From contig CAINVP010000083.1 of assembly GCA_903854185.1 (NCBI GenBank), positions 1 to 48,570 on the forward strand: a stretch of 48,570 bases of DNA. Reading direction: 5' to 3'. Made by a program: the position numbers and the translations under genes. Shown piece after piece: positions 1-18,018 of the stretch (the stretch's first letter is position 1; each line of letters opens with the position of its first letter). This DNA comes from an uncultured Actinomycetes bacterium (GTDB lineage Bacteria > Actinomycetota > Actinomycetes > Nanopelagicales > Nanopelagicaceae). The notes beneath the pieces were generated by a model, which had not been told where the DNA came from, ran no database searches, and saw nothing but the letters and a program-made list of their open reading frames with translations.

Positions 1-395
1 AACGGTTTTTTGCTAACCCCGCGTGCAATTCGCCATTCACCAGCAAAGGCCGCGTCACCATAACCGAAGTGGAGCGCGCTCATGATGAGTACAAGTCGGA
101 ATCCCCAGATGTTCCACGTTGCAATTCCAAATCCAGCTGCGACAGCGATCGCAACGTAGATAACGATGAAGAGCACGAACCGAACTTTTGATTTTGAGGA
201 GATAGAGATCAAATGGTCAACAGCGCCGTGTGGGACTCCGAGAAGCAGCGCTCCAAGTGCAATTACGAGCTGAACCGAGATAGAGAGTTGAATTCCAAGA
301 ACTTTCAAGGCGATGAATGCCAGGATTGCTACTATCGCAGATAGGCGAGAAAACTTCTGCGCCCGCGCATACACAGCAGAAAGTCCGAGATTCAT
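1..395 (-). CDS. blh: Brp/Blh-family beta-carotene 15,15'-dioxygenase, 5' part (cut by window edge)
   Basis: Reading leftwards from ATG at 395 there is an open frame of 131 codons that runs off the window edge. The protein is hydrophobic with several membrane segments. It carries the family hallmarks PHGAVDH (about residues 55-61) and, about 50 residues later, ALHFGYGD, which hold the histidine/aspartate iron-site residues of the Brp/Blh family. This integral membrane enzyme cleaves beta-carotene into two retinals, the chromophore of microbial rhodopsins. The first in-frame ATG after an upstream TGA is at 395, so the start is well defined. It lies 46 bases from, and divergent to, crtYc-crtYd, which make its substrate. 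There is no Shine-Dalgarno; a TACGCT box six bases upstream suggests a leaderless transcript. The C-terminal half is outside the window. Confidence 0.88.
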   Translation of the reverse strand, partial: MNLGLSAVYARAQKFSRLSAIVAILAFIALKVLGIQLSISVQLVIALGALLLGVPHGAVDHLISISSKSKVRFVLFIVIYVAIAVAAGFGIATWNIWGFRLVLIMSALHFGYGDAAFAGEWRIARGVSKKP

Positions 396-401
396 AGCGC
401 G

Positions 402-407
402 AGCGTA
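402..407 (-). promoter_or_regulatory. putative -10 box, leaderless promoter of blh
   Basis: On the minus strand TACGCT fits TAnnnT and ends six bases before the ATG at 395, so transcription could start at or next to the start codon. No ribosome binding site is seen. No convincing -35 box is present. Confidence 0.45.
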
Positions 408-441
408 TGTGAAAAAACCTCAGTTTGGGAGATGATTAGGC

Positions 442-774
442 ATGCGGCATTTCCAGTACTCATTTGTACTTGCCTTTGTTGCGATCTGCGCCATATTCGT
501 AAATCTAGCCTTCAGACTGCGCATAACTTCCCAGTGGCGGGCCTTCCTTAAAGTCGATGCTGCCATTCTCGTCATCTATCTGAGTTGGGATGCCTGGGCT
601 ATCCATAAGAAGAATTGGCGCTTTGATTCCCACCAAATCCTTAATACAACTTTATGGGGCGGCCTGCCGGTTGAAGAGGTCCTCTTCTTCATAATCGTGC
701 CGCTCATGACTATTTTGACTTATCTCGCACTGAACAAAATCGTTACCCGCCTGAAGAACGGTGGTTCACGATGA
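442..774 (+). CDS. crtYc: lycopene beta-cyclase subunit CrtYc
   Basis: A 110-residue membrane protein with about three helices. The family motif PVEEVLFF sits near residue 76 and holds the paired acidic residues of the CrtYc/CrtYd half-domains. Actinobacterial lycopene cyclases of this type are heterodimers of two such halves that cyclise both ends of lycopene to give beta-carotene. A GGGAG sequence ten bases upstream supports the ATG at 442. The stop overlaps the start of crtYd by four bases (ATGA), so the subunits should be made together. The length is normal for one half; fused versions are about twice as long. Confidence 0.88.
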   Translation: MRHFQYSFVLAFVAICAIFVNLAFRLRITSQWRAFLKVDAAILVIYLSWDAWAIHKKNWRFDSHQILNTTLWGGLPVEEVLFFIIVPLMTILTYLALNKIVTRLKNGGSR

Positions 775-1070
775 TTTACTCCGATATCGCTCTTAATGCA
801 GTCCTCGTCGCCGTGATGGTTGATCTCTTCCTGCTCCGCACCCAGATGATCACCCGCGGCATCTTCTGGCTAACCTATGGACTCATTCTTCCTTTTCAGT
901 TGCTTACTAATTGGTGGTTAACCTCTAAAAATATTGTGATGTATGAACCTGCCCAGATAATTGGCCGAAGGCTAGCCGGTGCGCCCATCGAAGATCTCCT
1001 CTTCGGCTTCTCGATGATTCTTCTAACACTGGCTTTATGGGATTTCTTTAGTAAGCGCGCATCGAAGTAG
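771..1070 (+). CDS. crtYd: lycopene beta-cyclase subunit CrtYd
   Basis: A 99-residue membrane protein whose motif APIEDLLFGF (near residue 71) matches the second half of the split lycopene cyclase. It pairs with CrtYc in the membrane to form beta-carotene, the substrate of the divergent Blh enzyme. It starts inside the crtYc stop (ATGA overlap), typical of translational coupling. No other carotenoid gene (crtE, crtB, crtI) follows, so lycopene must be made by genes elsewhere, possibly left of the window. The 55 bases after its stop show no clear terminator before the convergent neighbour. Confidence 0.88.
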   Translation: MIYSDIALNAVLVAVMVDLFLLRTQMITRGIFWLTYGLILPFQLLTNWWLTSKNIVMYEPAQIIGRRLAGAPIEDLLFGFSMILLTLALWDFFSKRASK

Positions 1071-1125: not shown

Positions 1126-2481
1126 TTATTTCTTTACAACCGCAGCAACTGCTTTAGCGAAGTAGTCATCTGCTTCAGCGGAGAATTGTGCGAGAGAGAT
1201 TCCATAAGCTTTTTCGAAGACTGCTGCGAAATCCTCGCCCGGAATTTTTTCAGTTATAAAGAGCGCATCCATATTTCCTGTCTTGGCTATCAGATACTCA
1301 GTTGCAATAAGACCTTTGGTGTATTCACAACTACTGGAATAGCTTCCCTGTCCTGTTAATTCGGTCAACGAGACGGATAGGCAAGTATTTCCGGTGCCCT
1401 GTAGATACAAATTGCGTAGATCCAAATATGAAGTGCTTGTGGCTTTTGAGTATGCAACTAATTTAAAGAATTCAGCAGTTCCCTCACGAAGCCAAGCCGG
1501 CTGAATCATCCAGAAGTTAGGATTACCAACCGACTTAGCTGCACTTTGCTGGGCCTCGTGCCCTAGCTCATGTGGAATATTGGCTGCAATCGACAGTCGT
1601 GAAAGTGCATCGGGAATACTGTCCGCATTCGAAATATCACTTGAACCTCCGGCAAACCACTGCAGGTCGGCCCAGATATCACCATTGCCACACGACCCTC
1701 CACCAGCGTTGTATTTGCAAGAGTCCGGAATATATAGATTCCGAAATGCCGGCCCCCAGGAGATGTACAAATTAAGTTTTCCTTCAAGTGAGAGACCAAA
1801 GGCAGAAACTAATTGGGTGGCGCTTGCGATAGTTGCTACCGAATTCTTCAACCAGAGGGTATCGGCAATCGTTGGATCAATATGAATAACCAAATTTGAA
1901 GGTACCGGGGCCGAGCCAGAGCCTGCAATAAATTTCGAAGCGAGGACGCTAACACGATTTAATTGTTCAAGCGAACTAGAAGCGTTGACTGGTAAGTGTG
2001 AGTTAAAAGTTGAAGTAGGAATGCAGAGCGCATTCAATAAACTATTGCGATTGGAACCGTCGGCAAGATTAATTATGAACTCCGCCTTGGGAAGATATTT
2101 TGATGGAAGAGAAACAGAAAACTTTACTGGCGTAGTCTTAACATCAGAGTTTATTGTCATTACTTTGGTGCCATAACGAACCGAGTTGTATGACACAGCC
2201 AAAGTTAGTTTTGACCAAAGGCCTTTCATATTGCTGAAGTGAAAGTTAGTGAAAGTAAGCGTTGTGTTCTTCCCTTTCAGGGTTTGCTTTGGGGTATCTA
2301 CCTGCAAATTTCCAATGGCCATTTCTGCGAACGTGCTCAACCCTGCGGGATCCGGACGGAAACAGGTCCAGGTGCTAACCGAGAGACCGCCAGTCGAATC
2401 ATTCGCAACTGCCGGCCCACTTTCTAAGAGGGCAGAAACGAGAATGGCTGAGACAAAAAGGCTAATTCGAGCTCTCTTCAC
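1126..2481 (-). CDS. secreted putative zinc metallopeptidase (gluzincin-like)
   Basis: A 451-residue protein with an N-terminal signal peptide (hydrophobic stretch about residues 6-26, AxA-like cleavage near residue 27). The C-terminal half has HELGH at about 304-308, followed 25 residues later by WLREGTAEFF, where the Glu of REG (about 333) is placed like the third zinc ligand of gluzincin peptidases. The N-terminal half (about 30-160) looks like a beta-rich secreted domain I do not recognise. Cysteines at about 255 and 264 may form a disulfide. The start is GTG at 2481, with GGGAG nine bases upstream. I infer an exported peptidase; no named family is assigned. It is convergent with crtYd and appears to be a single gene. 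Confidence 0.6.
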   Translation of the reverse strand: MKRARISLFVSAILVSALLESGPAVANDSTGGLSVSTWTCFRPDPAGLSTFAEMAIGNLQVDTPKQTLKGKNTTLTFTNFHFSNMKGLWSKLTLAVSYNSVRYGTKVMTINSDVKTTPVKFSVSLPSKYLPKAEFIINLADGSNRNSLLNALCIPTSTFNSHLPVNASSSLEQLNRVSVLASKFIAGSGSAPVPSNLVIHIDPTIADTLWLKNSVATIASATQLVSAFGLSLEGKLNLYISWGPAFRNLYIPDSCKYNAGGGSCGNGDIWADLQWFAGGSSDISNADSIPDALSRLSIAANIPHELGHEAQQSAAKSVGNPNFWMIQPAWLREGTAEFFKLVAYSKATSTSYLDLRNLYLQGTGNTCLSVSLTELTGQGSYSSSCEYTKGLIATEYLIAKTGNMDALFITEKIPGEDFAAVFEKAYGISLAQFSAEADDYFAKAVAAVVKK

Positions 2482-2557
2482 TCACGTAGTCTCCCTTTGA
2501 GCCCGGAAGTTGTCTAGAGATTGATTGCCATCTTTGATGTATTTCATTCACAGTGCG

Positions 2558-2630
2558 TGTCCCAGACGGGAGTTGAACCCGTGGCCTACCGCTTAGGAGG
2601 CGGTCGCTCTATCCACTGAGCTACTGGGAC
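2558..2630 (-). tRNA. tRNA-Arg (anticodon CCU)
   Basis: On the minus strand a full cloverleaf can be drawn. The acceptor stem is GTCCCAG/CTGGGAC with an A discriminator at 2558. The D-arm is GCTC/GAGC. The anticodon stem ACCGC/GCGGT encloses the loop CTCCTAA, giving anticodon CCU. The T-arm is ACGGG/CCCGT with loop TTCAACT. It reads AGG codons. CCA is not encoded after the discriminator, as is usual in many actinobacteria. Confidence 0.95.
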
Positions 2631-2691: not shown

Positions 2692-3462
2692 ATGGCCCAC
2701 GCTCTCATCACAGGTGCAACCGCAGGCATCGGTAACGCATTCACACGCTTACTTGCCGAGAAGAAGTATGACCTTGTCCTGGTCGCACGGGATCTATCAC
2801 GTATGGAAGAGCAAGCCGCGGATTACCGAGCAAAATATGGAGTTCAGGTAGAAATTCTTCAGGCTGACCTTTCAAAGGTGGATGAGTTAGCAAAGGTTGA
2901 GGCCCGACTTCACGAGCTTATAAAGCCAATCGATGTTCTTATCAACAACGCTGGCTTTGGTCTCAACAAGGCATTCTCATCGAGCAAGGTTGAGGATGAA
3001 CAACAACTTCTAGATGTGCTTGTCACTGCACCGATGCGCCTTACTCACGCAGCACTCCCCCAGATGCACGCGAGGAAATCCGGAACAGTTATTAATGTCA
3101 GTAGCGTTGCCGGCTGGATTGCTGGCGGCACGTACAGCGCAGCAAAGTCCTACGTCACCGTCTTCTCTGAATCTCTCAACACTGAACTTCGCAACAGCGG
3201 AGTTAACGTCCTCGCGCTCTGCCCGGGGTTCACACATACCGAATTCCATCAGCGGGGTCAGATGAAGATGGGTGGACTTCCGACATTTATGTGGCTCGAT
3301 GCTGACCGAGTTGTGACAGATGCTTGGGCGGCGGCGCAAAAAGGAGAGGCGATCTGCATACCTGGTGGCCAATATAAAGTCCTGAGCTGGATCGCTCGGA
3401 AGGCCCCCCGAGGTCTCGTCCGCCGGATTGGGATGGGTGTTCGGGTCCGCCAGCGCCGCTGA
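2692..3462 (+). CDS. short-chain dehydrogenase/reductase
   Basis: A 256-residue classical SDR. The Rossmann nucleotide motif TGATAGIG is at the N terminus, NNAG lies near residue 90, and the catalytic Ser (SSVAG) is followed by YSAAK. The fold and length are those of cytosolic NAD(P)H-dependent oxidoreductases. The N-terminal VARD after the second strand, with a basic residue, suggests NADPH preference. Substrate cannot be told from sequence; close relatives are annotated as DltE/YqjQ-like SDRs. The start at 2692 is chosen over an upstream GTG because the family begins two or three residues before the first strand and a -10 box precedes the ATG. It stands alone, next to tRNA-Arg on the other strand. 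Confidence 0.8.
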   Translation: MAHALITGATAGIGNAFTRLLAEKKYDLVLVARDLSRMEEQAADYRAKYGVQVEILQADLSKVDELAKVEARLHELIKPIDVLINNAGFGLNKAFSSSKVEDEQQLLDVLVTAPMRLTHAALPQMHARKSGTVINVSSVAGWIAGGTYSAAKSYVTVFSESLNTELRNSGVNVLALCPGFTHTEFHQRGQMKMGGLPTFMWLDADRVVTDAWAAAQKGEAICIPGGQYKVLSWIARKAPRGLVRRIGMGVRVRQRR

Positions 3463-3530
3463 GCGCAATCTCTCAGCCATTTCCCACGCCCTGCACGCCT
3501 AATTGTGACTTTGCAAGGTGGCTGCTCACT

Positions 3531-3536
3531 TACAAT
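3531..3536 (+). promoter_or_regulatory. possible -10 box for the downstream secreted-protein gene
   Basis: TACAAT is the best -10-like hexamer in the 169-base gap before the gene starting at 3632. It would give a leader of roughly 90 bases with a GGAGG ribosome binding site. No -35 at proper spacing is convincing. Nothing else is seen in this gap. Confidence 0.3.
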
Positions 3537-3631
3537 TCTCACAGGCGTTAAGAGGCGGGTGTTGACCCGAACCCAACGCGACCAATTCGATCCAGAATGG
3601 CATAAAGAAGCAACAACTTGGAGGAAATGTG

Positions 3632-4510
3632 ATGAGAAAAAGCAATAAGGCTAACCACGTAACCATGATTGGCGCGGTCATCACGGCCGGCCTCCTCGTG
3701 CTCTCAAGCACCACTGGTGCGCACGCCGCCTCAGTTAAGCAGGGCGTTGCCTGCGCCAAGAAGGGCGCTAAGACAACCGCTGGTGGAACCAAGTACACAT
3801 GTGGCGTCAATCCTGCATCTTCAAGTAAGAAGCTCGTCTGGGTCACCTCAGATTGCATCTCCTCTGACACTGCATACAAGAGCTCAGTCACCGAGAGCAA
3901 CGCATTTGCAAATCAACAGATCAGCGCACTGAACCAGATTGCCGAGAGCATCGATGCCTCCAAGAAACTTGTTGATGTTTTGAATCAGCAGATCTCTGAT
4001 GCGAAGACAAAGAAGTACATCGTTGACTATGACCACGCGGTAAAGCCAGCCATCCCTATCACTGCAATCGGTGTAGATGCTGCTATTGCAGCACTTCAGG
4101 CAAAGGTCATTGTAGATACAACAAAGCGCGATAACGCTGGCGCACAGCGTGATCTTGTTCGTGCAACACTTGCAAAGACATATAACGACTCACAAATTCT
4201 CGCCTTCGCAAATGATCTTTCCGGGTCAATCAGAAATTCAGATAAGAATGTTCAGAATTACGCAAACTGGATTCGTGCATACTCTGGCTACGACGGCAGT
4301 ATCTCAAGCACGAATAAGAACATCGCAAACCTTCAGAAGATTCTTACAAACTTGAATGATCGCCTTGCAAAGGCACAAGCTCAGGTCACCTCAATGACCT
4401 CACGCTACGATGTCGCAAAGGCACAACAGCCAACACTCTTGGCTCAGATCAAGACCAACTCTTCACAGGCGCTTCAATTCCGCACCATCGCTTGTAAGGC
4501 TGGCCTCTAA
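3632..4510 (+). CDS. secreted coiled-coil protein of unknown function
   Basis: A 292-residue protein with a clear signal peptide (hydrophobic core about residues 11-27, cleavage after GAHA). A short cysteine motif follows: CAKKG, about 18 residues, then KYTC and a KLVW segment. This looks like a small disulfide-bonded cell-surface domain. The rest (about residues 75-285) is rich in Ala, Gln, Asn, Lys and Leu with heptad-like spacing, consistent with a long helical coiled coil. The ATG at 3632 is preferred to GTG at 3629 because GGAGG lies seven bases upstream of it. A strong terminator follows. No enzymatic motif is present, so a structural or envelope role is likely. I do not recognise a named family. 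Confidence 0.65.
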   Translation: MRKSNKANHVTMIGAVITAGLLVLSSTTGAHAASVKQGVACAKKGAKTTAGGTKYTCGVNPASSSKKLVWVTSDCISSDTAYKSSVTESNAFANQQISALNQIAESIDASKKLVDVLNQQISDAKTKKYIVDYDHAVKPAIPITAIGVDAAIAALQAKVIVDTTKRDNAGAQRDLVRATLAKTYNDSQILAFANDLSGSIRNSDKNVQNYANWIRAYSGYDGSISSTNKNIANLQKILTNLNDRLAKAQAQVTSMTSRYDVAKAQQPTLLAQIKTNSSQALQFRTIACKAGL

Positions 4511-4530
4511 GCACTAAAAGTTCAATAAAA

Positions 4531-4556
4531 AAACCACCGGTTGATATCGGTGGTTT
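4531..4556. terminator. bidirectional intrinsic terminator
   Basis: AAACCACCG pairs with CGGTGGTTT around an eight-base loop, flanked by A and T runs on the two sides. It lies between convergent genes ending at 4510 and 4580 and can serve both strands. Confidence 0.9.
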
Positions 4557-4579
4557 TTTTATGCCATAAATAAATTCAA

Positions 4580-5032
4580 CTAGCCAAGAGTGACTGTCTT
4601 TGCTGTTGCGGTGAGTGGAATCTTGGTAAGGGCGGTACGGGCCGGACCACGTACAACTTTGCCTGGGAGTGTGAACTCAGAACCATGTGCTGGGCAGATC
4701 CAATTACTGCCCTGCTGCATCACGGTTACGCCATTGTGTGTGCAACTCAAGTCAATCGAGTTGTAACCATTAACGGCCTTCGATGTTCGAATGACTGCGA
4801 TGGTGCGGCCATCCGAGAGATCGATAGTGACAACTCCACCAACCTTGGCGAGCGCTTTATTCTTGGCAAGATCAATCTTTAATTTACCGCCCGATTGGCT
4901 GATGCCAGAAGCTGGAACGGAGGCGGAGGCGAGATCTGTGGCCAGGCCCAAACTCAGTGCAAGGGCGCCACAGAGGACTGCTCGGCGGGATGGCAATCCA
5001 CTCTCGGTTTCATTCTGAACTGCTTCTAACAT
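4580..5032 (-). CDS. Tat-exported Rieske [2Fe-2S] protein
   Basis: A 150-residue protein. The N terminus has a twin-arginine signal (SRRAVLCGALAL). The C-terminal 100 residues form a Rieske domain with ligand motifs CTHNG and, about 15 residues on, CPAHGSEF, giving the Cys-His/Cys-His cluster ligands. GPARTALTKIP near the end is typical of small Rieske ferredoxin-like proteins. It should bind one 2Fe-2S cluster and act on the outer face of the membrane. It is not in a bc-complex operon, so it is not evidently the respiratory Rieske subunit. The ATG at 5032 is chosen because GGAG lies five bases upstream and the Tat motif is then near the N terminus; a longer frame reaches 5110. Partner unknown. 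Confidence 0.8.
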   Translation of the reverse strand: MLEAVQNETESGLPSRRAVLCGALALSLGLATDLASASVPASGISQSGGKLKIDLAKNKALAKVGGVVTIDLSDGRTIAVIRTSKAVNGYNSIDLSCTHNGVTVMQQGSNWICPAHGSEFTLPGKVVRGPARTALTKIPLTATAKTVTLG

Positions 5033-5086
5033 TACAACTCCATATCTTCGACACTCAATTGAAAACTCTTCTGAACTCTCCACTAT

Positions 5087-5092
5087 TAGCCT
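5087..5092 (+). promoter_or_regulatory. putative -10 box, leaderless promoter of the GGDEF gene
   Basis: TAGCCT ends seven bases before the GTG at 5100. If transcription starts there the message is leaderless; otherwise translation could begin at the ATG at 5115. Confidence 0.35.
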
Positions 5093-5099
5093 GTAGCAA

Positions 5100-6503
5100 G
5101 TGGCTGGCACTCGGATGAACCGGAAGCGAATTTATCTCACTCCACGGCTATTCCCCATCTTTTTCCTCATTCTGCATCTGGGAATTCGCCTAGCATTCCC
5201 CACCCCGACGCCACTCTCCGATCTCATCATTTATAACGCCACTCCCTTCCTCGCCGCAGCAGCGCTTCTGCGTAGTCCACTCTTCAACTCACGTGGATCA
5301 CTCCTGTTGACGGCGACCGGTCTGGGTTCCTGGGCGATTGGCTCAACCCTGTCGACCTGGCAATCGTTCTATCCTGGTGACAATCCGAACGCGCTCACTC
5401 TCTACATCAACGCTGGGTACACGCTCTTCTATCCATGCATGATTCTCGCCTTGTTCTCCTCAACAACACTTGAGCGGCTCCTAACCTTCACCCAGCTCCT
5501 CGATGCGTTGATCTCATCGCTTGGGTTAAGTGCGCTCATTGCAGCTCTCTTTATCAAACCCGCGATGATTACCTTTGATGGTTCTACATCAACAGTCTTC
5601 TTTACTCTGCTCTTCCCCGCTGGCGATGTTGTGTTGCTCGCAACTTCAGTGCTCTATTTCCTCCTACTGCCCAAGAGCGGCCGATCGTTCTTATTACTCG
5701 CTGGCTTCGCACTCTTTGCGACGACCGATATCTACTTTCTGATCGCATCAGCTACAACCGGATATCCGTTCGCTTCCATTATCGATGATGGCTGGTTACT
5801 TGGTCTCATCTGCATAGCAGAGGCCTTCTATCACCGACCAAAGCCGATAATCATCTCAGATCTATGGAGCTCATTCACCACCACCGCCTCACTCATCCTC
5901 GCCACAATCATTCTGGCAACAGCCGCTCTTCATCCATCTGCCTTTGTGGCTCCGGTTATTGCAGTTGCCATTGCCACCATCGCATTTTCATTTCTACGCA
6001 TGGTCGTAGCGTTAAGGAGCGCGCATGCGGCGCGCGATGATCGAGAGTTAGCCCACCTCGATGAACTTACGAGCCTGCCAAATCGGAGAAGATTTTTGGC
6101 TGAACTTGCCGAGATTGAGCGCAGCGGGGTTGGCACCGTCTTACTCCTAGACCTTGACGGCTTTAAGCCCATTAACGACGAGCGCGGTCACGATGTGGGC
6201 GATCAATTGCTGCGGCACATCTCCCGCAGATTTGAGAGGGCGCTGGCACACGGTGATCTGTTAGCCAGACTCGGTGGGGATGAATTCGGTGCCATCGTGC
6301 GCGGTGATGGCATCGAAGCGGCAGAGGCGCTCCTTGCGGCGTTGAGTTATCCGGTGCATTTAGTGACTGGCTCAGTAAAAGTGGGAGCATCCATCGGCAT
6401 GGTCACTAATGATGGACGAGGTGAACTTTTGAAACGTTGCGACAGTGCGATGTATGCAGCAAAGCGAAGTGGCGGTGGCGTTAAGAGCTGGGACTCTCTT
6501 TAA
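5100..6503 (+). CDS. membrane-bound diguanylate cyclase (GGDEF)
   Basis: A 467-residue protein with about eight to ten membrane helices over residues 15-300, then a GGDEF domain from about HLDELTSLPNRR. The active-site loop LGGDEFG is intact (about residues 392-396), so it should make cyclic di-GMP from two GTP. The inhibitory I-site RxxD that usually precedes it by five residues reads AHGD, so feedback inhibition is probably lost. There is no EAL domain and no recognisable sensor beyond the membrane part. The start is GTG at 5100 or ATG at 5115. The end overlaps the convergent photolyase gene by 23 bases. Confidence 0.85.
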   Translation: MAGTRMNRKRIYLTPRLFPIFFLILHLGIRLAFPTPTPLSDLIIYNATPFLAAAALLRSPLFNSRGSLLLTATGLGSWAIGSTLSTWQSFYPGDNPNALTLYINAGYTLFYPCMILALFSSTTLERLLTFTQLLDALISSLGLSALIAALFIKPAMITFDGSTSTVFFTLLFPAGDVVLLATSVLYFLLLPKSGRSFLLLAGFALFATTDIYFLIASATTGYPFASIIDDGWLLGLICIAEAFYHRPKPIIISDLWSSFTTTASLILATIILATAALHPSAFVAPVIAVAIATIAFSFLRMVVALRSAHAARDDRELAHLDELTSLPNRRRFLAELAEIERSGVGTVLLLDLDGFKPINDERGHDVGDQLLRHISRRFERALAHGDLLARLGGDEFGAIVRGDGIEAAEALLAALSYPVHLVTGSVKVGASIGMVTNDGRGELLKRCDSAMYAAKRSGGGVKSWDSL

Positions 6504-7827
6504 TCTCAGCCAAGCGGGCTAGCGATTCGATTCGCTCCTTTGCATGATCAACAACTGGATCTGGATACCCGTGATCTAAACCGCCAATGACTTTCCATGG
6601 CTCGTGAATCTCCGCTCCCGATAACTGAGCAAGCTCTGGCACATAGCGCTTGATGTAGTGACCATCTGGATCAAACTTACGACCTTGCTCGATGGGGTTA
6701 AAGACGCGGTAATAAGGTGAGGCATCTGTGCCACAGCCTGCCGTCCATTGCCAGCCGTGCGCATTGCTGGCTACGTCGTAATCGATGAGGTGCTGCTCGA
6801 AGAATCGCTCGCCAAGTTGCCATTCCAGATGTAGATCCTTTACTAAGAACGAGGCGACGACCATGCGGGCACGGTTGTGCATCCAACCCTCTTTGAGTAA
6901 TTGACGCATTGCCGCATCGACGAATGGGAAGCCGGTTGTGCCACTCTTCCACCGTTCAAATAGATCTCCGGGCTCGTCATAACGCATCTGCGCAAAGCGG
7001 GGGGCGTAATACTCTTTGTCGGTCGTTGGGTAGTTGAAGAGAACATCGGCATAGAACTCGCGCCAAGCAATCTCTTTACGGTAAGTCACCTCACCATCGC
7101 TATCACCAAGAGTGGCAAGCAGAGTACGTGGATGAATCTCACCAAACTTCAAAGCAGCGCTGAGTCGACTTGTGCCATCTACGCTTGGGACGTTGCGCAT
7201 CTCGTTGTAATCACGAAGATGTTCCTTCGACCACTGCTTCCAACGCAACAGCGCAGCATGTTCTCCTGCTGGTGTAATAAGAGCACCTTCTGGCAGATGC
7301 CAATGTGGAAATTCTTGATGTTCTTTAGTCGGCTCCACCGCATTGATTAACTTTGGCGCTGTTACTGGACCCCGCCAACCGTGAGTAACCCACGCCTTAT
7401 AGAACGGGGTGTAGACGCGATAATTAGTGCCATCCGGTTTTCGCACGCGGCCAGGCGCAACTGCATAGGGACTGCCGGTGCGGATGAGAGTAATCCCAGC
7501 CTTCTCAATTTCAAGATCGCGAGCACGACCAAGTGGTTCGAACTCTTCGGAGATATGTACATCCTGCGCGCCGTATAGCTCTTGCATCTGCTTGAGAACA
7601 GCGATGGGCTTGCCCTGCACAATATGCAATCGATCATCAAGTGACCGGTTTAATTCGCGAAGTGAGTTGGCAAGATATGCCAAGCGCTTTGTGCCCGCCT
7701 GCGCAAAGAATTTCTCGTCCAGAATAAAGATAGGAACAATCTCATCGGATTCTGCTAACGCTGCCAAGAGCGCTGGGTGATCTCCGATGCGAAGATCTCT
7801 TCGGAACCACATAATTGACCGCTTCAT
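6481..7827 (-). CDS. phr: deoxyribodipyrimidine photo-lyase
   Basis: A 448-residue class I CPD photolyase. The N terminus WFRRDLRIGDHPAL starts the antenna-chromophore domain. The FAD domain shows GFPFVDAAMRQL, GWMHNRARMVVASF, the ASNAHGWQWTAGCGTDASPYYR region and the C-terminal DPVVDHAKER. The Asn of ASNAHGW and the Trp residues of the electron-transfer chain are in place. It repairs UV pyrimidine dimers using blue light and FADH-. This fits a surface-water organism. Its 3' end overlaps the convergent GGDEF gene by 23 bases. The start is ATG at 7827, 21 bases from the divergent esterase start, with no clear Shine-Dalgarno. Confidence 0.93.
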   Translation of the reverse strand: MKRSIMWFRRDLRIGDHPALLAALAESDEIVPIFILDEKFFAQAGTKRLAYLANSLRELNRSLDDRLHIVQGKPIAVLKQMQELYGAQDVHISEEFEPLGRARDLEIEKAGITLIRTGSPYAVAPGRVRKPDGTNYRVYTPFYKAWVTHGWRGPVTAPKLINAVEPTKEHQEFPHWHLPEGALITPAGEHAALLRWKQWSKEHLRDYNEMRNVPSVDGTSRLSAALKFGEIHPRTLLATLGDSDGEVTYRKEIAWREFYADVLFNYPTTDKEYYAPRFAQMRYDEPGDLFERWKSGTTGFPFVDAAMRQLLKEGWMHNRARMVVASFLVKDLHLEWQLGERFFEQHLIDYDVASNAHGWQWTAGCGTDASPYYRVFNPIEQGRKFDPDGHYIKRYVPELAQLSGAEIHEPWKVIGGLDHGYPDPVVDHAKERIESLARLAEIKESPSS

Positions 7828-7836
7828 AAGTAGGTC

Positions 7837-7842
7837 TATCCT
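7837..7842 (+). promoter_or_regulatory. putative -10 box, leaderless promoter of the esterase gene
   Basis: TATCCT ends six bases before the ATG at 7849, with no ribosome binding site between. It lies in the 21-base gap to the divergent photolyase gene, so the rest of this promoter must extend into phr. Confidence 0.5.
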
Positions 7843-7848
7843 TCCATT

Positions 7849-8691
7849 ATGAGCGAGCTAATGCACTATCAAGTTCGAGGTCTGCCAGGAAGCGTGGCTC
7901 GCACCTACTTCAACGGCAGAAGAGTTGATTATTGGGCACCTGCGGGCGGTAGCGACCGGGTCGTGCTGGCTCACGATGGGCAGAACATCTTTGATAAGAA
8001 GACCGCCACACGAGGGAGAACGTGGGAGCTCGCCCAGCGAGCGATATCAGTCTCTGAGGAGTTCGGAATAACTCCCCCACTTGTTATCGGAACCTTCCAT
8101 AGCGCCTCCGCACAAGACCCATTCGGCCGCGCGAAAGACCTTGCACCCCAGCACCCATTTCAGAATGGGGTCACTCCGATTCTTGGTCGATCCGGCTTCT
8201 GGCAGCGAGAACAACCTTCTTTTCCGTTGGATGAGATTCGCTCTGATCACTATCTCGCTGAGATAGCAGAGGTAATCATCCCTACTATTGCCAAGGCAAC
8301 GGGATCTGAGATTGATTCGCTGAAGTCAGCGATGCTCGGTTCAAGTATGGGTGGATTGGCGACGCTCTACGGAGTGAATAACTACCCACATCGCTTCCAA
8401 ACAGCGCTCGCCTTCTCTCCCCATTGGATAATCGGTGAGAACCCGTTGGTGGATGCGCTTATCACTCCGCTCACTCCTGGAAAGATCTCTCGCCTTTGGA
8501 TGAGCCGTGGGAGTAAAGGCCTCGACAAGGGGTATGAACCCTTTCAAAATTATGCGAATGAATTAGCAATTAAAAATGGTTGGCACTCAGGTGTGAACTT
8601 CATTCATAAGGTCTATCCGCGCACTGGCCATAACGAGCGTTCGTGGAGTAGTTATCTCTCAGAAGCGCTTCGCTTCTGGTTGCATCCTTAA
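7849..8691 (+). CDS. alpha/beta-hydrolase, putative esterase family
   Basis: A 280-residue cytosolic protein of the putative-esterase (Fes/EstD-like) group. An early HDGQNIFD strand-loop (about residues 42-49) is typical of this family. GSSMGG places the nucleophile at Ser166, and the C-terminal GHNERSW supplies the histidine; the acid residue is probably in the SRGSKGLDKG region. No signal peptide, so it acts inside the cell on a small ester or thioester that cannot be named. Its TAA stop interlocks with the TAA stop of the convergent GH13 gene (four shared bases). The start codon directly follows a leaderless-type -10 box. Confidence 0.8.
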   Translation: MSELMHYQVRGLPGSVARTYFNGRRVDYWAPAGGSDRVVLAHDGQNIFDKKTATRGRTWELAQRAISVSEEFGITPPLVIGTFHSASAQDPFGRAKDLAPQHPFQNGVTPILGRSGFWQREQPSFPLDEIRSDHYLAEIAEVIIPTIAKATGSEIDSLKSAMLGSSMGGLATLYGVNNYPHRFQTALAFSPHWIIGENPLVDALITPLTPGKISRLWMSRGSKGLDKGYEPFQNYANELAIKNGWHSGVNFIHKVYPRTGHNERSWSSYLSEALRFWLHP

Positions 8692-10517
8692 TCTCTCTCA
8701 AGCCGCCAGATATGAACGCCTGCACTGTGTGGGCGGAAGTGAATTGCTGCTGCGTGTGAAGTGTCGCCCACTTCGCCACCATCGCCAATTATTAACTCAT
8801 CGAGTCGATAATCATAAGGCGCTAAGTTAATAGCGATATTGCAGACCTCCCGATTGACCACTACGAGAAGTGATTCGCCTTTGCATTCACGCAGGTAGGC
8901 AATGTAATGGCTCTCTGCCGCAACAAAGCGTAGGCCACCTTCAGATAGCGCCTTGCAGTTGCGGCGAAGATGGACGAGAGCGGTAACCAGTCCTAAGAAG
9001 GTGTTATCCCACGAATCCTTATCATCCCAAGGAATTGTGCGGCGAGCATCTTCTCCCCACGCGCCTTCAATACCAATTTCATCGCCCGCGAAGATTGATG
9101 GCACACCTGGATAAGTCATTAAGAGCCCCATCGCAGCAAAGTGGCGAGCCCGATCACCGTTCACGACATTTCTAAATCGGGCGGTATCGTGTGAATCAAG
9201 CAAGATCATGCTCGCATTCAGCGCGCGCCACGGAATACTTGCATTGAACTGCACCATTGATTGCACCAGGGCATCTCCGCCAAATGAGGGGACATCCGTT
9301 GGCAATCCAAAGAAGCCACCCTGCGTATCAGGGTTCTTAGATAACCAACCCCATACGGGGCGCATGAAACCGTTGTAATTCATTGTGCCGTGCCAGCCAA
9401 AACCGTCGAGATCGTTTGGAAAGTTATCGGCATTCTCTGCCACGAGCCATGCATCCGGATTCGCCTCATCCATCGCCTTGCGAATGCCACGAATTACTTC
9501 TTGGTTAATATCTTGACCCCGGAAACGACCGGTCATATTTCCTACATCAATTCGCCAACCAGCCATCCCCTTCTTCGGGCCAACCCAGGTGCGAACAATG
9601 GAGCTCTTTCCTTCATACATGCGGCGACGGAGCTCTGCTGATGAGTAATTTAATTTTGGGAGCGAGGCGAGGCCCCACCAACCCTCATAGCCATGTTCGA
9701 TGCTCTTATCCCAGTAGAAGAAAGAGCGTTCCTTCGACTTCTTATCAGCCAGGGCCTTGCGAATCCAGGGATGGCCGGCACCGCAGTGATTCGTTGTGAG
9801 GTCTCCCATGATGCGAATTCCAGCGCGCTTCGCCTTCTTCTGAAGGCGCTCCATCGCTTCATCGCCACCAAGTACCGGATCCACCTCATCAAAGCTGCTG
9901 GCGTCATAGCGATGGGTAGAGCGTGCGGCGAAGAATGGAGTGAAATAGATTCCGTTTACACCTAAGTCTGTAAGGTGATCTAGCTGTTCGCGAACTCCAT
10001 CGAGGTCACCGCCAAAATACTCCACTCCCGTAGTTGCATCTTTTCCGTTAGGAAGCTCGCTCCATTTACGTGGCACATAAAACTTAGGTAACTTGTACTT
10101 CTTTCCCGATGCAGCGAAGCGGTCAGGAAATATTTGATAGAAGACACTCGACGAGATCCACTTTGGATAAGCCGGCTTTGCAAAGATAGCGAAATCTTGG
10201 GCGCTAGAGACCTCGTTAGGGTGAATGCCCGAAGCATTGAGCCACTCGTACATCTTTGGCCCAGTTAAGAGAAAGCGGTAACGCGAACTCTCATTGATGA
10301 TTGCAACCTTTGCGCTCCACCATTGTTCATTCTCGGTAGCGCTGACAATCTTGAGATCGAAATGACGTGGTTCGCCATCTTGAAAGATGCGAACAAGGAT
10401 AGATGTTGCCCCGTAGCCCTTAGGAGTGCGAACGCGAAGTTCAACCTCTTCGCCCAACTTTGGCGCAGCGTTACTTACATATAACGGACTTCCATCGTGA
10501 TGAGGTGTTCTTTCCAC
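8688..10517 (-). CDS. glycoside hydrolase family 13 (neopullulanase/maltodextrin glucosidase-like)
   Basis: A 609-residue alpha-amylase-superfamily enzyme. Residues 1-120 form an N-terminal beta-sandwich, the (beta/alpha)8 barrel begins at SSVFYQIFPDRF, and a C-terminal beta domain ends the chain. Conserved regions: GDLTTNH (about 239-244), GWRIDVGN with nucleophile Asp324, LVAEN with acid/base Glu361, and LLDSHDT with Asp444. There is no signal peptide, so it probably degrades imported or stored maltodextrins in the cytoplasm. The length and N-terminal domain fit the neopullulanase/MalZ group. The start is GTG at 10517, with AGAGG eight bases upstream. A MalK-type ATPase at 18173 could serve sugar uptake, but the genes are not linked. 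Confidence 0.88.
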   Translation of the reverse strand: MERTPHHDGSPLYVSNAAPKLGEEVELRVRTPKGYGATSILVRIFQDGEPRHFDLKIVSATENEQWWSAKVAIINESSRYRFLLTGPKMYEWLNASGIHPNEVSSAQDFAIFAKPAYPKWISSSVFYQIFPDRFAASGKKYKLPKFYVPRKWSELPNGKDATTGVEYFGGDLDGVREQLDHLTDLGVNGIYFTPFFAARSTHRYDASSFDEVDPVLGGDEAMERLQKKAKRAGIRIMGDLTTNHCGAGHPWIRKALADKKSKERSFFYWDKSIEHGYEGWWGLASLPKLNYSSAELRRRMYEGKSSIVRTWVGPKKGMAGWRIDVGNMTGRFRGQDINQEVIRGIRKAMDEANPDAWLVAENADNFPNDLDGFGWHGTMNYNGFMRPVWGWLSKNPDTQGGFFGLPTDVPSFGGDALVQSMVQFNASIPWRALNASMILLDSHDTARFRNVVNGDRARHFAAMGLLMTYPGVPSIFAGDEIGIEGAWGEDARRTIPWDDKDSWDNTFLGLVTALVHLRRNCKALSEGGLRFVAAESHYIAYLRECKGESLLVVVNREVCNIAINLAPYDYRLDELIIGDGGEVGDTSHAAAIHFRPHSAGVHIWRLERD

Positions 10518-10558
10518 TCCTCATTCCTCTCTGAACGTTATTACTAGATCAGGCGCGA

Positions 10559-11674
10559 CTAGCTGTGTAGTGCCGCGACGCTCTCATCCCAACCCTGTAC
10601 ATCGCTGGCACTACGTGGGCCATGACCGATGTAACGAGCTGATGGGCGAACCAAGCGACCCGTACGCTTCTGCTCGAGGATATGTGCTGACCAACCTGCA
10701 GTGCGTGCACATGTAAACATTGAGGTGAACAATGGCGCTGGAACTTCAGCGAAATCAAGGATGATTGCCGCCCAGAACTCAACATTTGTCTCAAGGACTC
10801 GCTCTGGATGGCGCTCGTGTAACTCTGCAAGTGCTGCCTTCTCAAGTGCTAGTGCAACCTCATAACGTGGCGCACCTAACTCTTGCGCTGTGCGACGCAG
10901 TGTACGAGCACGTGGATCCTCTGCGCGGTAGACGCGATGGCCAAAGCCCATCAAACGCTCGCCACGATCCATGATGCCCTTCACATAAGCGCGGGCATCA
11001 CCTGACTTTTCAACTTCTTCAATCATTCCAAGTACGCGTGATGGCGCGCCACCGTGAAGTGGGCCAGACATCGCACCAATTGCGCCGGACATGGAGGCAG
11101 CAACATCTGCACCAGTAGAGGCAATAACGCGAGCGGTAAAGGTAGAGGCATTCATTCCATGCTCAGCTGCAGAGACGAAGTATGCATCGATAGCGCGTAC
11201 ATGCTTTGGATCTGGCTCTCCACGCCAACGAATCATCATGCGCTCTGTAACAGTATGCGCCTTATCAATTTCAGATTGTGGGACTGGTGGGAGCACGACA
11301 CCACGGGCTGCTTGCGCCAGATATGAGAGTACGGTGACTGATGTGCGAGCGAGATCGCTACGGGCTTCTTCATCAGAGATATCTAGGAGTGGCTTGAATC
11401 CCCAAGCAGGAGCGAGCATCGCGATTGCAGATTGAATATCTACACGAACATCACCGGAGTGAACAGGAAGCGGAAATGCTTCTGCTGGTGGCAGGCCAGG
11501 GTTGAATTGATCATCGACGAGTAGCCCCCAAGCGTTGCCGAATGAGACGCGACCAACGAGGTCTTCAATATCTACGCCACGGTAACGGAGCGCGCTACCC
11601 TCTTTATCTGGCTCGGCAATCGTTGATTCAAATGCAATAACGCCTTCGAGACCTGGCTTGAAATCATCCGACAC
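10559..11674 (-). CDS. citA: citrate synthase, actinobacterial CitA type
   Basis: A 371-residue citrate synthase-family enzyme condensing oxaloacetate and acetyl-CoA. Visible active-site segments are the His of HGMNAS, the His of GAMSGPLHGGAP, the His of GFGHRVYRAEDPRA, and the Asp of NVEFWAAIILD. The length and the N-terminal GLEGVIAFESTIAEPDKEG match the shorter actinobacterial 'citrate synthase 2' (CitA) rather than the GltA type. A 2-methylcitrate synthase activity cannot be excluded, but no propionate genes are nearby. The start is GTG at 11674, with GGGAG seven bases upstream. Divergent from pdxH across 141 bases. Confidence 0.88.
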   Translation of the reverse strand: MSDDFKPGLEGVIAFESTIAEPDKEGSALRYRGVDIEDLVGRVSFGNAWGLLVDDQFNPGLPPAEAFPLPVHSGDVRVDIQSAIAMLAPAWGFKPLLDISDEEARSDLARTSVTVLSYLAQAARGVVLPPVPQSEIDKAHTVTERMMIRWRGEPDPKHVRAIDAYFVSAAEHGMNASTFTARVIASTGADVAASMSGAIGAMSGPLHGGAPSRVLGMIEEVEKSGDARAYVKGIMDRGERLMGFGHRVYRAEDPRARTLRRTAQELGAPRYEVALALEKAALAELHERHPERVLETNVEFWAAIILDFAEVPAPLFTSMFTCARTAGWSAHILEQKRTGRLVRPSARYIGHGPRSASDVQGWDESVAALHS

Positions 11675-11815
11675 GTGAAACTCCCCTGTAATCGTCCGCG
11701 CCTACATCACTGGAGGCATGCCCCTATTCTGCCCCTAGCCGCCTAGTGCTACCAACCCAATTCGGTTAGATTTACCGGGCGGACCCTCATACAGAAAGTG
11801 ACCTGTAATACATTT

Positions 11816-12469
11816 ATGGATAATCCAATAGAACGAGAGCAGATTCGGGCGATGCGCCGCTCATACGGCGAGGCTGGGTTGGGCGAGGTCGATCCTGACC
11901 CAATCAAGCAGTTCCTCCATTGGCTCGCCCAGGCCCACGAAAACCCGGTCATTGTTGAAGCAAATGCGATGGTCCTTTCTACCGGTGGCGGCGAAGATCT
12001 CACCTCACGAACTGTTCTACTAAAAGATGTGACAGCGGCAGGTTTCTCGTTCTTCACAAATTATGAATCGCGTAAAGCGAAGGCAATTGCAAGTTCTGAG
12101 CAGGTAGCCCTTCTCTTCCCTTGGTATGCAATGGAACGACAAGTGCTGATTCAAGGCGTTGCAACAAAGGTAAGTGCGGCCGATAGCGATGCTTACTTCG
12201 CATCGCGTCCATGGGGAAGCAAAATCGGCGCATGGGCAAGTACGCAATCAGAAGTTTTAGATGAGCGCACCTCATTAGAGGCACGCTACGCAGAGTTTGC
12301 AGAGAAGTTCCCGGAAGGTAGCGATGTTCCTCGTCCACCTTACTGGGGCGGCTATGTAGTGCAACCCACTACTATTGAGCTCTGGCAGGGGCGGTATTCA
12401 AGGTTGCATGACCGCGTGAGATATATCCAGAGCAATGGCGCTTGGAAGACAATTCGACTATTCCCATAA
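11816..12469 (+). CDS. pdxH: pyridoxine/pyridoxamine 5'-phosphate oxidase
   Basis: A 217-residue FMN flavoprotein making pyridoxal 5'-phosphate. Signature blocks are RRSYGEAGL, SSRTVLLKD-like LTSRTVLLKDV, FFTNYESRKA, LFPWYAMERQV, SRPWGSKIGAWAS and the C-terminal PTTIELWQGR...LHDRVRY. Length is normal for the family. The ATG at 11816 is chosen over an in-frame GTG at 11798 because family proteins start near here. The upstream gap (11675-11815) is A/T-rich near the start, with TGTAAT six bases before the ATG, a weak leaderless -10 candidate. Its product serves the PLP enzymes SerC (next gene) and alanine racemase in this window. Confidence 0.93.
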   Translation: MDNPIEREQIRAMRRSYGEAGLGEVDPDPIKQFLHWLAQAHENPVIVEANAMVLSTGGGEDLTSRTVLLKDVTAAGFSFFTNYESRKAKAIASSEQVALLFPWYAMERQVLIQGVATKVSAADSDAYFASRPWGSKIGAWASTQSEVLDERTSLEARYAEFAEKFPEGSDVPRPPYWGGYVVQPTTIELWQGRYSRLHDRVRYIQSNGAWKTIRLFP

Positions 12470-12518
12470 TTATTCCGGGAATGGCGATCCATTGATGAAC
12501 GAGCGAGTGAATGGGTAA

Positions 12519-13643
<1,125 letters not shown>

Positions 13644-14903
13644 TTAACTCCGCTCGTAGAACGACTCGAGCACATCCTCGGTCTTAATACTCACCGGGGT
13701 TCTCAGTTCGCTACGTAGCACCGCATAAGTAATCGCGGTTGCTGCCGCTGTAATGCCGCCGCAGAGGGCTATCGTCTGACGTATTCCTATCTCAACAGTG
13801 ATCCAGCCGATGAGGGGAGAGAAGAAGGGTGAGCCGCCCATAAAGACCATGAGATAGATGCCCATGACGCGGCCGCGAATTTGTGGGTCACTCGTGCGCT
13901 GGACATACGAATTGGCGGCAATCATCGTGGTGAGCGCTGTTGCCCCACAAATTGGCAGCGCCAATGCATAGATGAGGAAGTTTGGGGCGAGCGAGGAGAG
14001 TGCAACTACAGATCCAAAGAGGGTTGCAAAGGCCATGATGAACTTAGCGGAGCGCTTTGTATCTAACTTCGCTGACAATAACGCCGCTGAGAGCGAACCG
14101 ATAGCAAGTATCGTCCCAAGGAAACCAAATGTGGCTGGACCTTTATGAAAGATATTCTTCGCCATCAGGGCGTTATAAATTTGGAAATTCAAGCCGAACG
14201 TTCCAGCGAAGAAGACGGTACACATCACCGCTATCAAATCTCGGCGCGCTCTCACATATCGCAGCCCCTCACGAACTTTGCCTTGTGACTTCTCTTTAAG
14301 ATCTACAAAGAGGTCCGATTCGCGAATTACTAGGAGGGAGAGAATCACAAAGAGATAGGAGAGCGCATTGAGAATAAAGGAGGGTCCCGTATGAAAGGCA
14401 GCAATCAACAGGCCTGAGATACCTGGCCCAATAAGCCGTCCGGCATTGAAATTTGCCGAGTTAAGACTAATCGCATTTGCAAGATCACTCTTGCCCACCA
14501 TCTCAGCGGTAAATGCCTGACGAACTGGCGCATCGATTGCACCGAAGGCGCCGAGGGCAAAGGCCAAGAGATAGACATGCCACATCTGCACATTATGAGT
14601 AATGACCAGTAGTCCAAGTATGAGCGAGGTTAATCCCCCACCCACGTTAGTAAAGATCAAGAGCTTGCGTTTATTGAGCCGATCAGCAAGTGCGCCCGCC
14701 CAGATACTAAAGAGGAATGATGGGAGAAATTGCAGGCCGGTAACTAAGCCGAGATCTCTACCACTTCCTGTTAACTCGAGAACTAGCCAATCCTGGGCAA
14801 TGCGCTGCGCCCATGAGCCGATATTTGAGACGGCGTTGGAGAAGAAGAGCAATCTGAAGTTTCTATGACGGAATGATCGCAATGACCCCGTCTCGTTAAC
14901 CAC
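13644..14903 (-). CDS. MFS transporter (MFS_3/EntS-like exporter)
   Basis: A 419-residue major facilitator with about twelve helices. The N terminus (SFRHRNFRLLFFSNAVSNIGSWAQRIAQDWLVLELTG, shortened here to its first segments) and the loop GALADRLNKRK resemble the MFS_3/EntS group of exporters. A substrate cannot be assigned; siderophore, drug or metabolite efflux are all possible. The start is GTG at 14903, six bases after a TAGACT box, pointing to a leaderless transcript. The stop directly abuts the serC stop. In other actinobacteria a similar transporter occurs near serC, cold-shock and DUF3027 genes, so this is part of a conserved neighbourhood rather than an insertion. Confidence 0.82.
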   Translation of the reverse strand: MVNETGSLRSFRHRNFRLLFFSNAVSNIGSWAQRIAQDWLVLELTGSGRDLGLVTGLQFLPSFLFSIWAGALADRLNKRKLLIFTNVGGGLTSLILGLLVITHNVQMWHVYLLAFALGAFGAIDAPVRQAFTAEMVGKSDLANAISLNSANFNAGRLIGPGISGLLIAAFHTGPSFILNALSYLFVILSLLVIRESDLFVDLKEKSQGKVREGLRYVRARRDLIAVMCTVFFAGTFGLNFQIYNALMAKNIFHKGPATFGFLGTILAIGSLSAALLSAKLDTKRSAKFIMAFATLFGSVVALSSLAPNFLIYALALPICGATALTTMIAANSYVQRTSDPQIRGRVMGIYLMVFMGGSPFFSPLIGWITVEIGIRQTIALCGGITAAATAITYAVLRSELRTPVSIKTEDVLESFYERS

Positions 14904-14909
14904 TGTGCG

Positions 14910-14915
14910 AGTCTA
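14910..14915 (-). promoter_or_regulatory. putative -10 box, leaderless promoter of the MFS gene
   Basis: On the minus strand TAGACT ends exactly six bases before the GTG at 14903. There is no Shine-Dalgarno. The same TAGACT hexamer precedes the helicase and SDR genes. Confidence 0.55.
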
Positions 14916-14934
14916 ACTCGTTAGGTGGACGGTG

Positions 14935-14940
14935 TACCCT
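14935..14940 (+). promoter_or_regulatory. putative -10 box, leaderless promoter of the small membrane protein gene
   Basis: TACCCT ends seven bases before the ATG at 14948, with no ribosome binding site between. It is back-to-back with the MFS promoter in a 44-base gap. Confidence 0.45.
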
Positions 14941-14947
14941 TCAGATT

Positions 14948-15136
14948 ATGGGCACAACGGTTCGAGTACTTCTCTCCGGAATCTCACTCTGGATTGTTGC
15001 TCTCGTCATTGAATTACTTCGCGGTGCAACCAACACTTCGCTCTGGATCTGCATCGTTGGCGCTGCGCTAGGAGTCATAGGACTCATCTATTCAATTCGC
15101 CGGTTGCGGCGAGAAACACTACAGAAGAGAAGTTAG
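14948..15136 (+). CDS. small two-helix membrane protein (DUF2530-like)
   Basis: A 62-residue protein with two membrane helices (about residues 5-22 and 30-48) separated by a short polar loop, ending in a basic tail (RRLRRETLQKRS). Size, topology and position beside cold-shock, DUF3027, MFS and serC genes fit the actinobacterial DUF2530 family, though the match is by general character only. Function unknown. It has a leaderless-type promoter, and its TAG stop overlaps the stop of the convergent cold-shock gene by four bases. Confidence 0.55.
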   Translation: MGTTVRVLLSGISLWIVALVIELLRGATNTSLWICIVGAALGVIGLIYSIRRLRRETLQKRS

Positions 15137-15516
15137 CCGTCGATCTGGCCGGCGATACCCTTAAGTACCTTTGCTAAGCGGGTGGCATCAGGGCCAGTTG
15201 GATAACGCCCATGGCGAAGTCCATTACCGACCTTATCGAGCAATTTGATTGTATCTTCAATGATTGTTGCAAGATCATCGGCCGCCATGCGAGTGTTAGC
15301 GACAACAGATGCAGGTTCATCGATGAGTCGGACCGTTAAAGCTTGTGGCCCTTTCTTTCCCTCAGCAACGCTGAACTCCATCTTTGTCCCAGGTTTTACT
15401 GATGGCACACCGGCAGGTAGAGCAGAGGCAGCGAGATAAACATCTTCGCCCTCTTCAGATGAGATGAAGCCAAAACCCTTTTCGAGGCTAAACCATTTGA
15501 CGCGACCGATAGGCAT
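15133..15516 (-). CDS. cold-shock domain protein with C-terminal extension
   Basis: A 127-residue protein. Residues 1-65 are a cold-shock OB-fold with the RNA-binding motifs GRVKWFSLEKGFGFI (RNP1, KGFGFI) and DVYLAASAL (in place of DVFVHYSAI). The Val-Tyr-Leu version lacks the usual His of RNP2. The C-terminal 60 residues (about 66-127) are a helical extension seen in the longer actinobacterial CspB-type proteins. It probably binds single-stranded RNA or DNA as a chaperone. The start ATG has AAGGAG five bases upstream. It is followed on the opposite strand by an interlocking stop. Located next to DUF3027 and groEL2, a grouping also seen in other actinobacteria. Confidence 0.88.
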   Translation of the reverse strand: MPIGRVKWFSLEKGFGFISSEEGEDVYLAASALPAGVPSVKPGTKMEFSVAEGKKGPQALTVRLIDEPASVVANTRMAADDLATIIEDTIKLLDKVGNGLRHGRYPTGPDATRLAKVLKGIAGQIDG

Positions 15517-15598
15517 TGTGACTCCTTCATTTTCTAGTACTGGGATATTTTAACGGGGAAGCGGGTTGTGCTGGGTTCAATTACGGTCAATTATCGAC

Positions 15599-16279: not shown

Positions 16280-17908
<1,629 letters not shown>

Positions 17909-17947
17909 CTATCTAGATTTCACACTGATTCAAGCTGGGCTGATTTT

Positions 17948-17974
17948 TTAGCACTCTAGCCCGGTGAGTGATAA
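17948..17974 (-). promoter_or_regulatory. CIRCE operator (HrcA binding site) upstream of groEL2
   Basis: TTAGCACTC, nine bases, GAGTGATAA: the classical inverted repeat TTAGCACTC-N9-GAGTGCTAA with one mismatch. It lies about 50 bases before groEL2 and is expected to bind HrcA for heat-shock control. Confidence 0.92.
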
Positions 17975-18018
17975 CCCAAATTTACCGACTTTCTATTCCC
18001 CGTCATAATCAAGGGACG

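Follow-up and report, generated by a model that had tools for sequence, protein, structure and literature searches.

The left edge of the window (the whole stretch of 48,570 nucleotides analysed here) holds one half of a retinal cassette in which rhodopsin and blh are divided from crtYc-crtYd by a short divergent gap, which has its own, B-type lycopene cyclase, and which has been moved and lost largely as a block; we give this reading a probability of about 0.72. Gene content and order, two cyclase types, a conflict between trees, deletion scars and a conserved gap were observed directly and carry the argument; the activity of every enzyme, the division of labour between the cyclases, and transcription and co-regulation are predicted from sequence. 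In the mechanism that we propose, lycopene would be made by crtE, crtI and crtB at another locus, the B-type CrtYcd of the cassette would cyclise it to beta-carotene, and Blh would cleave beta-carotene to the retinal that charges the neighbouring proton-pumping rhodopsin. The crtYc-crtYd pair would be transcribed opposite to blh, with a ribosome site, and an A-type CrtYcd elsewhere in the genome (C63:16716-17347) would serve another carotenoid branch, so that the cassette brings its own cyclase. The cassette would behave largely as a unit when it is inherited, passed between genera or deleted.

blh is completed on a second contig and is followed by a rhodopsin gene

The window starts with the first 131 codons of a 317-codon blh gene (3-395, minus strand), in a frame that has an ATG start and runs past the left end. 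This fragment includes GVPHGAVDH and ALHFGYGD, in agreement with the original prediction of a partial Blh protein with PHGAVDH and HFGYGD motifs. It matched the Pfam BCD profile at 41.9 bits (cut-off 28) and NCBIfam blh_monoox at 52.1 bits, under the cut-off of 95.25, with 131 amino acids only being present. Since the window starts at base 1 of its contig (C83), blh is cut by the assembly, which consists of 1.45 Mb in 119 contigs and is 86% complete. A Pfam search of the source genome found two blh stretches, one in the window and one on contig C101, where the whole gene occupies 33-986 (317 amino acids) and matched BCD at 94 bits over profile positions 2-262 of 267, against the same cut-off of 28. 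Window 1-427 aligns with the reverse complement of C101:1-427 at 416 identical bases, and the 11 mismatches are all synonymous; C83 and C101 most likely break off within one and the same gene of two closely related strains. In G030, which both the cyclase tree and the blh tree place nearest to the source genome, a single contig (C4) carries rhodopsin, blh, crtYc, crtYd and a homologue of the window gene at 1126-2481, in that order, and the position of this homologue supports the join of C101 to C83.

The remainder of blh, expected to the left of the window, is thus present in the same genome, and a truncated gene was rejected. A duplicated blh was rejected as well, since the two contigs overlap in a dovetail formed precisely by their ends. 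It is very improbable that the C101 gene is a genuine second copy at another locus (in which case the blh of the window may be truncated): the two copies do differ at 11 of 427 bases, but the dovetail, the synonymous nature of every difference and the full gene order on one contig of G030 all speak against it. A relative of Blh with a solved structure was not found by sequence at E 0.01, and the protein would cleave beta-carotene to retinal.

The genome has one rhodopsin gene, in a frame at C101:1144-1917 that lies on the same strand as blh and 157 bases downstream of it; its PF01036 match (C101:1189-1875, 140.1-140.5 bits) was obtained in a Pfam search of the genome. The protein carries RYVDWILTVPLLLVEV and DVLAK stretches, which supply the D-T-E residues typical of proton pumps and the lysine motif for retinal, and xanthorhodopsin (3ddl) and Gll0198 (6nwd) are among its five best matches in the PDB; by its sequence, the rhodopsin is of the proton-pump type. 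The D-T-E residues and the retinal lysine have established roles in rhodopsin proton pumps. Passages of PMC8113403 likewise describe the roles of D-T-E and lysine residues in rhodopsin pumps. The absence of any rhodopsin from the genome was rejected by the match on C101. Gene content supports the proposed supply of retinal to a rhodopsin in this organism, with the rhodopsin gene directly downstream of the completed blh.

To the right of blh, the original prediction had placed crtYc-crtYd at a distance of 46 bases, and the gap (396-441) has exactly this length. crtYc (442-774, plus strand) and crtYd (771-1070, plus strand) overlap in ATGA and scored 66.1 and 55.7 bits, respectively, both over the NCBIfam CarR cut-off of 39.4. 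Profile and motifs mark them as subunits of a lycopene cyclase, of the B-type (blh-linked) by tree position, with PVEEVLFF in CrtYc and PIEDLLFG in CrtYd; these hold the conserved acidic motifs PxEE and PxED, which are important in split lycopene cyclases. Beyond the cassette lies the flanking gene at 1126-2481 (minus strand), which had no Pfam or NCBIfam match; a HELGH motif and a signal-like start, both seen by eye, make it possibly a secreted zinc peptidase. A tRNA-Arg (CCT) at 2557-2630 (minus strand) was the only tRNA gene found by ARAGORN in the window.

The divergent arrangement recurs across genera

We compared 32 genomes of the genus, the source genome included, among which 22 had blh, 21 rhodopsin, 31 at least one cyclase domain and 31 crtI above cut-off. 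In all 22 blh genomes crtYc adjoined blh divergently, a recurrence that argues against chance. A rhodopsin profile match was present in 18 of these 22 genomes; G008 had a rhodopsin fragment at a contig edge, in G017 and G031 the contig ended just past blh, and the fourth, G024, has a broken blh that is described below. Within the B-type cassettes, blh was followed by rhodopsin on the same strand in 14 of 19, and rhodopsin lay on a different contig from blh in G021 and G023; the other three cassettes are those of G017, G024 and G031.

Order-wide, blh was found in 138 of 296 genomes, 116 of them outside the genus. Cyclases were examined in 43 genomes of eleven other genera, which covered 34 of the 116 outside blh carriers, from eight genera, picked for completeness and spread (G152 and G283 were assessed from coordinates alone). 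The divergent blh/crtYcd pair was present in 30 of these 34; two g2 genomes had blh away from crtYcd, and two were cut by contig ends. The ten single-contig blh genomes of g37 had one crtYcd pair each, beside blh; one of them, G151, also had a lone second crtYd about 0.9 kb past the crtYcd pair (C1:414112-414453).

Two types of lycopene cyclase

A tree of 95 CrtYc-CrtYd pairs contained a B-type clade of 24 (support 100), composed of 22 blh-side pairs, a truncated pair of G001 and a pair at the end of contig G017:C36. Among the 95 pairs, every intact B-type cyclase adjoined blh (22 of the 24 B-type pairs; the remaining two are partial). Outside this clade were the A-type pairs, namely all 30 crtB-side pairs, 14 others and 27 blh-side pairs, the latter comprising all those of g37, g30, g35 and g38 in the tree and three of the genus. 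Mean identity over the 44 pairs of the genus was 66% between B-types and 65% between A-types, against 41% from A to B, and the B-type sat on a separate long branch (0.97-1.08 changes per column). PxEE was present in CrtYc of 24/24 B-type and 71/71 A-type pairs, and PxED in CrtYd of 24/24 and 70/71, respectively.

Of the 22 blh carriers in the genus, 19 had a B-type pair on the blh side. Eighteen of these 19 were in the tree; G029, whose crtYc is interrupted at a contig end and was left out of the trees, was added because its 74 residues match a B-type at 99% identity and the A-types compared at no more than 39%. The G017:C36 pair, a second B-type pair nearly identical to that of G011, is probably on a misbinned contig and was not counted as a cassette. 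An A-type pair was found elsewhere in 12 of the 19 B-cassette genomes, and in eight of nine when only those with a completeness of 92% or more are counted; the seven with no second pair were mostly incomplete, but G022 is 94% complete. Among the ten genomes without blh, the A-type was the sole pair in eight (two of these with deletion scars), G001 had an A-type pair and the truncated B-type pair, with no blh match on the contig of the latter, and G005 (63% complete) had no cyclase pair. By this distribution, the B-type goes with blh and the A-type with the main carotenoid genes.

In G008, G010 and G018 the only pair found was an A-type one next to blh, and the eight g37 blh genomes in the tree (of ten) all had A-type pairs. 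Since single-pair g37 genomes carry the A-type beside blh, the A-type presumably can feed Blh and the B-type would not be chemically required, which is the main point against a specialisation of the B-type. The two types may thus be interchangeable beta-cyclases, the second copy being redundancy from cassette transfer with no division of labour, an alternative that we consider plausible at a little under even odds. Both the blh-side A-type pairs (seen in g37, g30, g35 and g38 as well as in three members of the genus) and the retention of PxEE and PxED in both types agree with interchangeability. It sits less well with the lack of any intact B-type away from blh among the 95 pairs, with the persistence of the A-type without blh (sole pair in 8 of 10 such genomes) and with the retention of both types in the small, nearly complete genomes that carry a B cassette (8 of 9).

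The rest of the carotenoid pathway

A crtE-like gene and crtI were both found on C59, away from the cassette, and with the A-type pair on C63 they bring the pathway genes of the source genome to crtE-like, crtI, two crtYcd pairs and blh. The search for crtE, crtB and crtI genes that the original prediction had proposed was thus successful for two of the three, and crtB had no match in the source genome (86% complete). crtB is present in 30 of the 32 genomes of the genus; because C59 ends about 0.6 kb after crtI and the crtI-crtB spacing in G030 is about 2.3 kb, crtB probably sits in an assembly gap. The gene that follows crtI on C59 is apt-like, as read from its translation.

In the main carotenoid cluster of G021, we found proteins resembling CrtD, CruG, CruF and CrtA, all below the curated equivalog cut-offs, and these neighbours suggest a glycosylated carotenoid. 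The A-type might then make a monocyclic or other end group for such a carotenoid, with the B-type as a specialised two-ring beta-cyclase for retinal, but this we regard as unlikely: the family matches in G021 and the separate long branch of the B-type are in its favour, whereas the matches are all sub-threshold, and the single-pair genomes with an A-type beside blh argue that the A-type makes two rings. The reading of the A-type as a C50 cyclase was weakly rejected, with no elongase gene seen by eye among the frames at about 3,000-18,000 of the G021 main-cluster stretch.

A conserved divergent gap with a promoter-like signal for blh

Upstream stretches were taken from 49 of 53 blh genes (three had no start codon in the aligned column, and one with a short upstream stretch was left out). 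Among 49 gaps measured, the median was 46 bases and the range 35-85, and the length was exactly 46, as in the window, in 18 of the 22 B-type cassettes measured. On the minus strand of the window, a -10-like hexamer, TACGCT (402-407), ends 6 nucleotides before the blh start and is a putative leaderless promoter; on the plus strand, an SD-like word, GGGAG (427-431), lies ahead of crtYc. After removal of near-identical upstream stretches, 37 non-redundant genomes remained, in which TANNNT ended 6 nucleotides before the blh start in 28 and 7 nucleotides before it in five (33/37 together), as compared with at most 3/37 at any other offset from 8 to 59. In 18 of the 49 gaps, picked by hand (15 of the genus and one each from g31, g39 and g4), the -10-like element was present in 18/18, and an SD-like word was found before crtYc in 15/18 and before blh in 0/18.

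A conserved -10-like element near the blh start together with the absence of an SD-like word is what a leaderless mRNA would be expected to show, and blh is probably transcribed as such from the -10 that abuts its start. A forward -10 for crtYc was not conserved as TANNNT in the 18 gaps, so that a shared bidirectional promoter is possible at most. The suggestion that the short gap may co-regulate both steps has indirect support in the conserved gap length and blh-side element, with no such conservation of a crtYc-side -10.

Proposed exchange between genera and deletion of the cassette

The B cassettes of g39, g31 and g4 nested within the genus. AU tests rejected the genus as one clade both for the cyclase (delta lnL 48.1, p 0.0004; 30 of 95 pairs) and for blh (delta lnL 44.3, p 2.4e-5; 28 of 53 rows), with rows picked to span the groups, the genus code as constraint group and the trees inspected before the test. 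In the rpoB tree, G313 (g39) and G034 (g4) fell outside the genus with support 100, the genus itself had a support of 78 only, and g31 was next to it; rpoB was found in 19 of 30 genomes, 18 of which were in the tree, G310 and G289 (no rpoB match) not being among them. The blh tree split in the same way as the adjoining cyclase (0.999 in one tree, 100/99 in the other). The A-type cassettes of G008, G010 and G018 had the gene order of g30, and their cyclases grouped with g30_G083 (support 98-100); for their blh genes the corresponding grouping had 0.97 and was not recovered in the tree with fewer rows. The genomes being MAGs, contigs placed in the wrong bin might pass for transfer in individual cases (G087, G289).

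Loss of the cassette has left scars. On a 107-kb contig of G026 (C49:77092-77443), the end of crtYd directly meets that of the rhodopsin gene, and both read outward; compared with G006, about 2.2 kb is missing between flanks that are 94% and 92% identical, and 7 bases are common at the joint. G025 (C20:9069-9665) has the same kind of crtYd/rhodopsin joint with a different rhodopsin end point, and both genomes retain the A-type pair and crtB. In crtYd both genomes break at nearly the same residue (66-67), which may mark a fragile site, and their rhodopsin breakpoints differ. In G024 (C126:1851-2354), blh is broken after about 160 residues inside the contig, and no rest of blh and no rhodopsin were found in the remaining 1.8 kb; this is either a third damaged cassette or a misassembly. 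In G020, a contig (C122:6057-6576) stops partway through the rhodopsin gene, close to the residue with which the G025 remnant starts, and the G020 population may be mixed for the presence of the cassette.

We tentatively propose, without rating it as probable, that a self-contained cassette (rhodopsin, blh, a dedicated paralogous cyclase and one conserved divergent promoter region) takes only lycopene from its host, passes between genera and is deleted whole, so that species would flip between retinal maker and non-maker with the main carotenoid branch intact, the B-type giving Blh its own beta-carotene. Many rhodopsin carriers have no blh; a compact cassette with its own cyclase, its scars and close relatives with and without it make the gain and loss of retinal synthesis by light-harvesting species testable in an abundant freshwater family. 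The A-type and B-type are, moreover, a natural pair of split cyclases for direct comparison of products.

Comparison with known systems

Retinal supply in acI actinobacteria is already known. According to passages of PMC8113403 and PMC12422013, it is known or proposed that freshwater actinobacteria synthesise retinal alongside actinorhodopsin, that many relatives lack this synthesis and that species exchange retinal with one another. In Aquiluna IMCC13023, according to passages of PMC8113403, actinorhodopsin occurs with native retinal and carotenoid and is a DTE-motif proton pump; blh, rhodopsin, carotenoid genes and the DTE motif are common to that organism and ours, which belongs to another actinobacterial lineage, and two cyclase types are not mentioned for Aquiluna in those passages. 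As for the gap, PMC12825309 describes pseudo-symmetrical bidirectional promoters in E. coli; here too one short stretch could fire both ways, although only the blh-side -10 is conserved and the promoter is putative.

What appears new is the blh-divergent crtYcd across genera, the blh-linked B-type cyclase, the nesting of B cassettes of other genera, the scars and the conserved -10. A blh-linked second cyclase was not described in the literature searched, mostly by title and abstract. Dwulit-Smith et al. (2018, AEM) reportedly described an acI retinal pathway with actinorhodopsin that comprises crtE, crtB, crtI, crtYcd and blh, and a further branch to complex carotenoids. The same kind of lineage and the same genes are concerned, whereas the genus studied here has a second, blh-linked type of cyclase. 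In passages of papers citing that study (PMC12422013 and PMC8113403), neither exchange of the cassette nor deletion scars nor a conserved gap came up.

A further parallel is marine. The proteorhodopsin photosystem cassette of marine bacteria links rhodopsin with crtEBIY-blh-idi and is laterally exchanged. Rhodopsin and retinal genes are linked and laterally exchanged in the present case as well, but the cassette holds the last two steps of the pathway and the pump only, its lycopene would come from a separate locus, and its cyclase is of the split CrtYc/CrtYd type.
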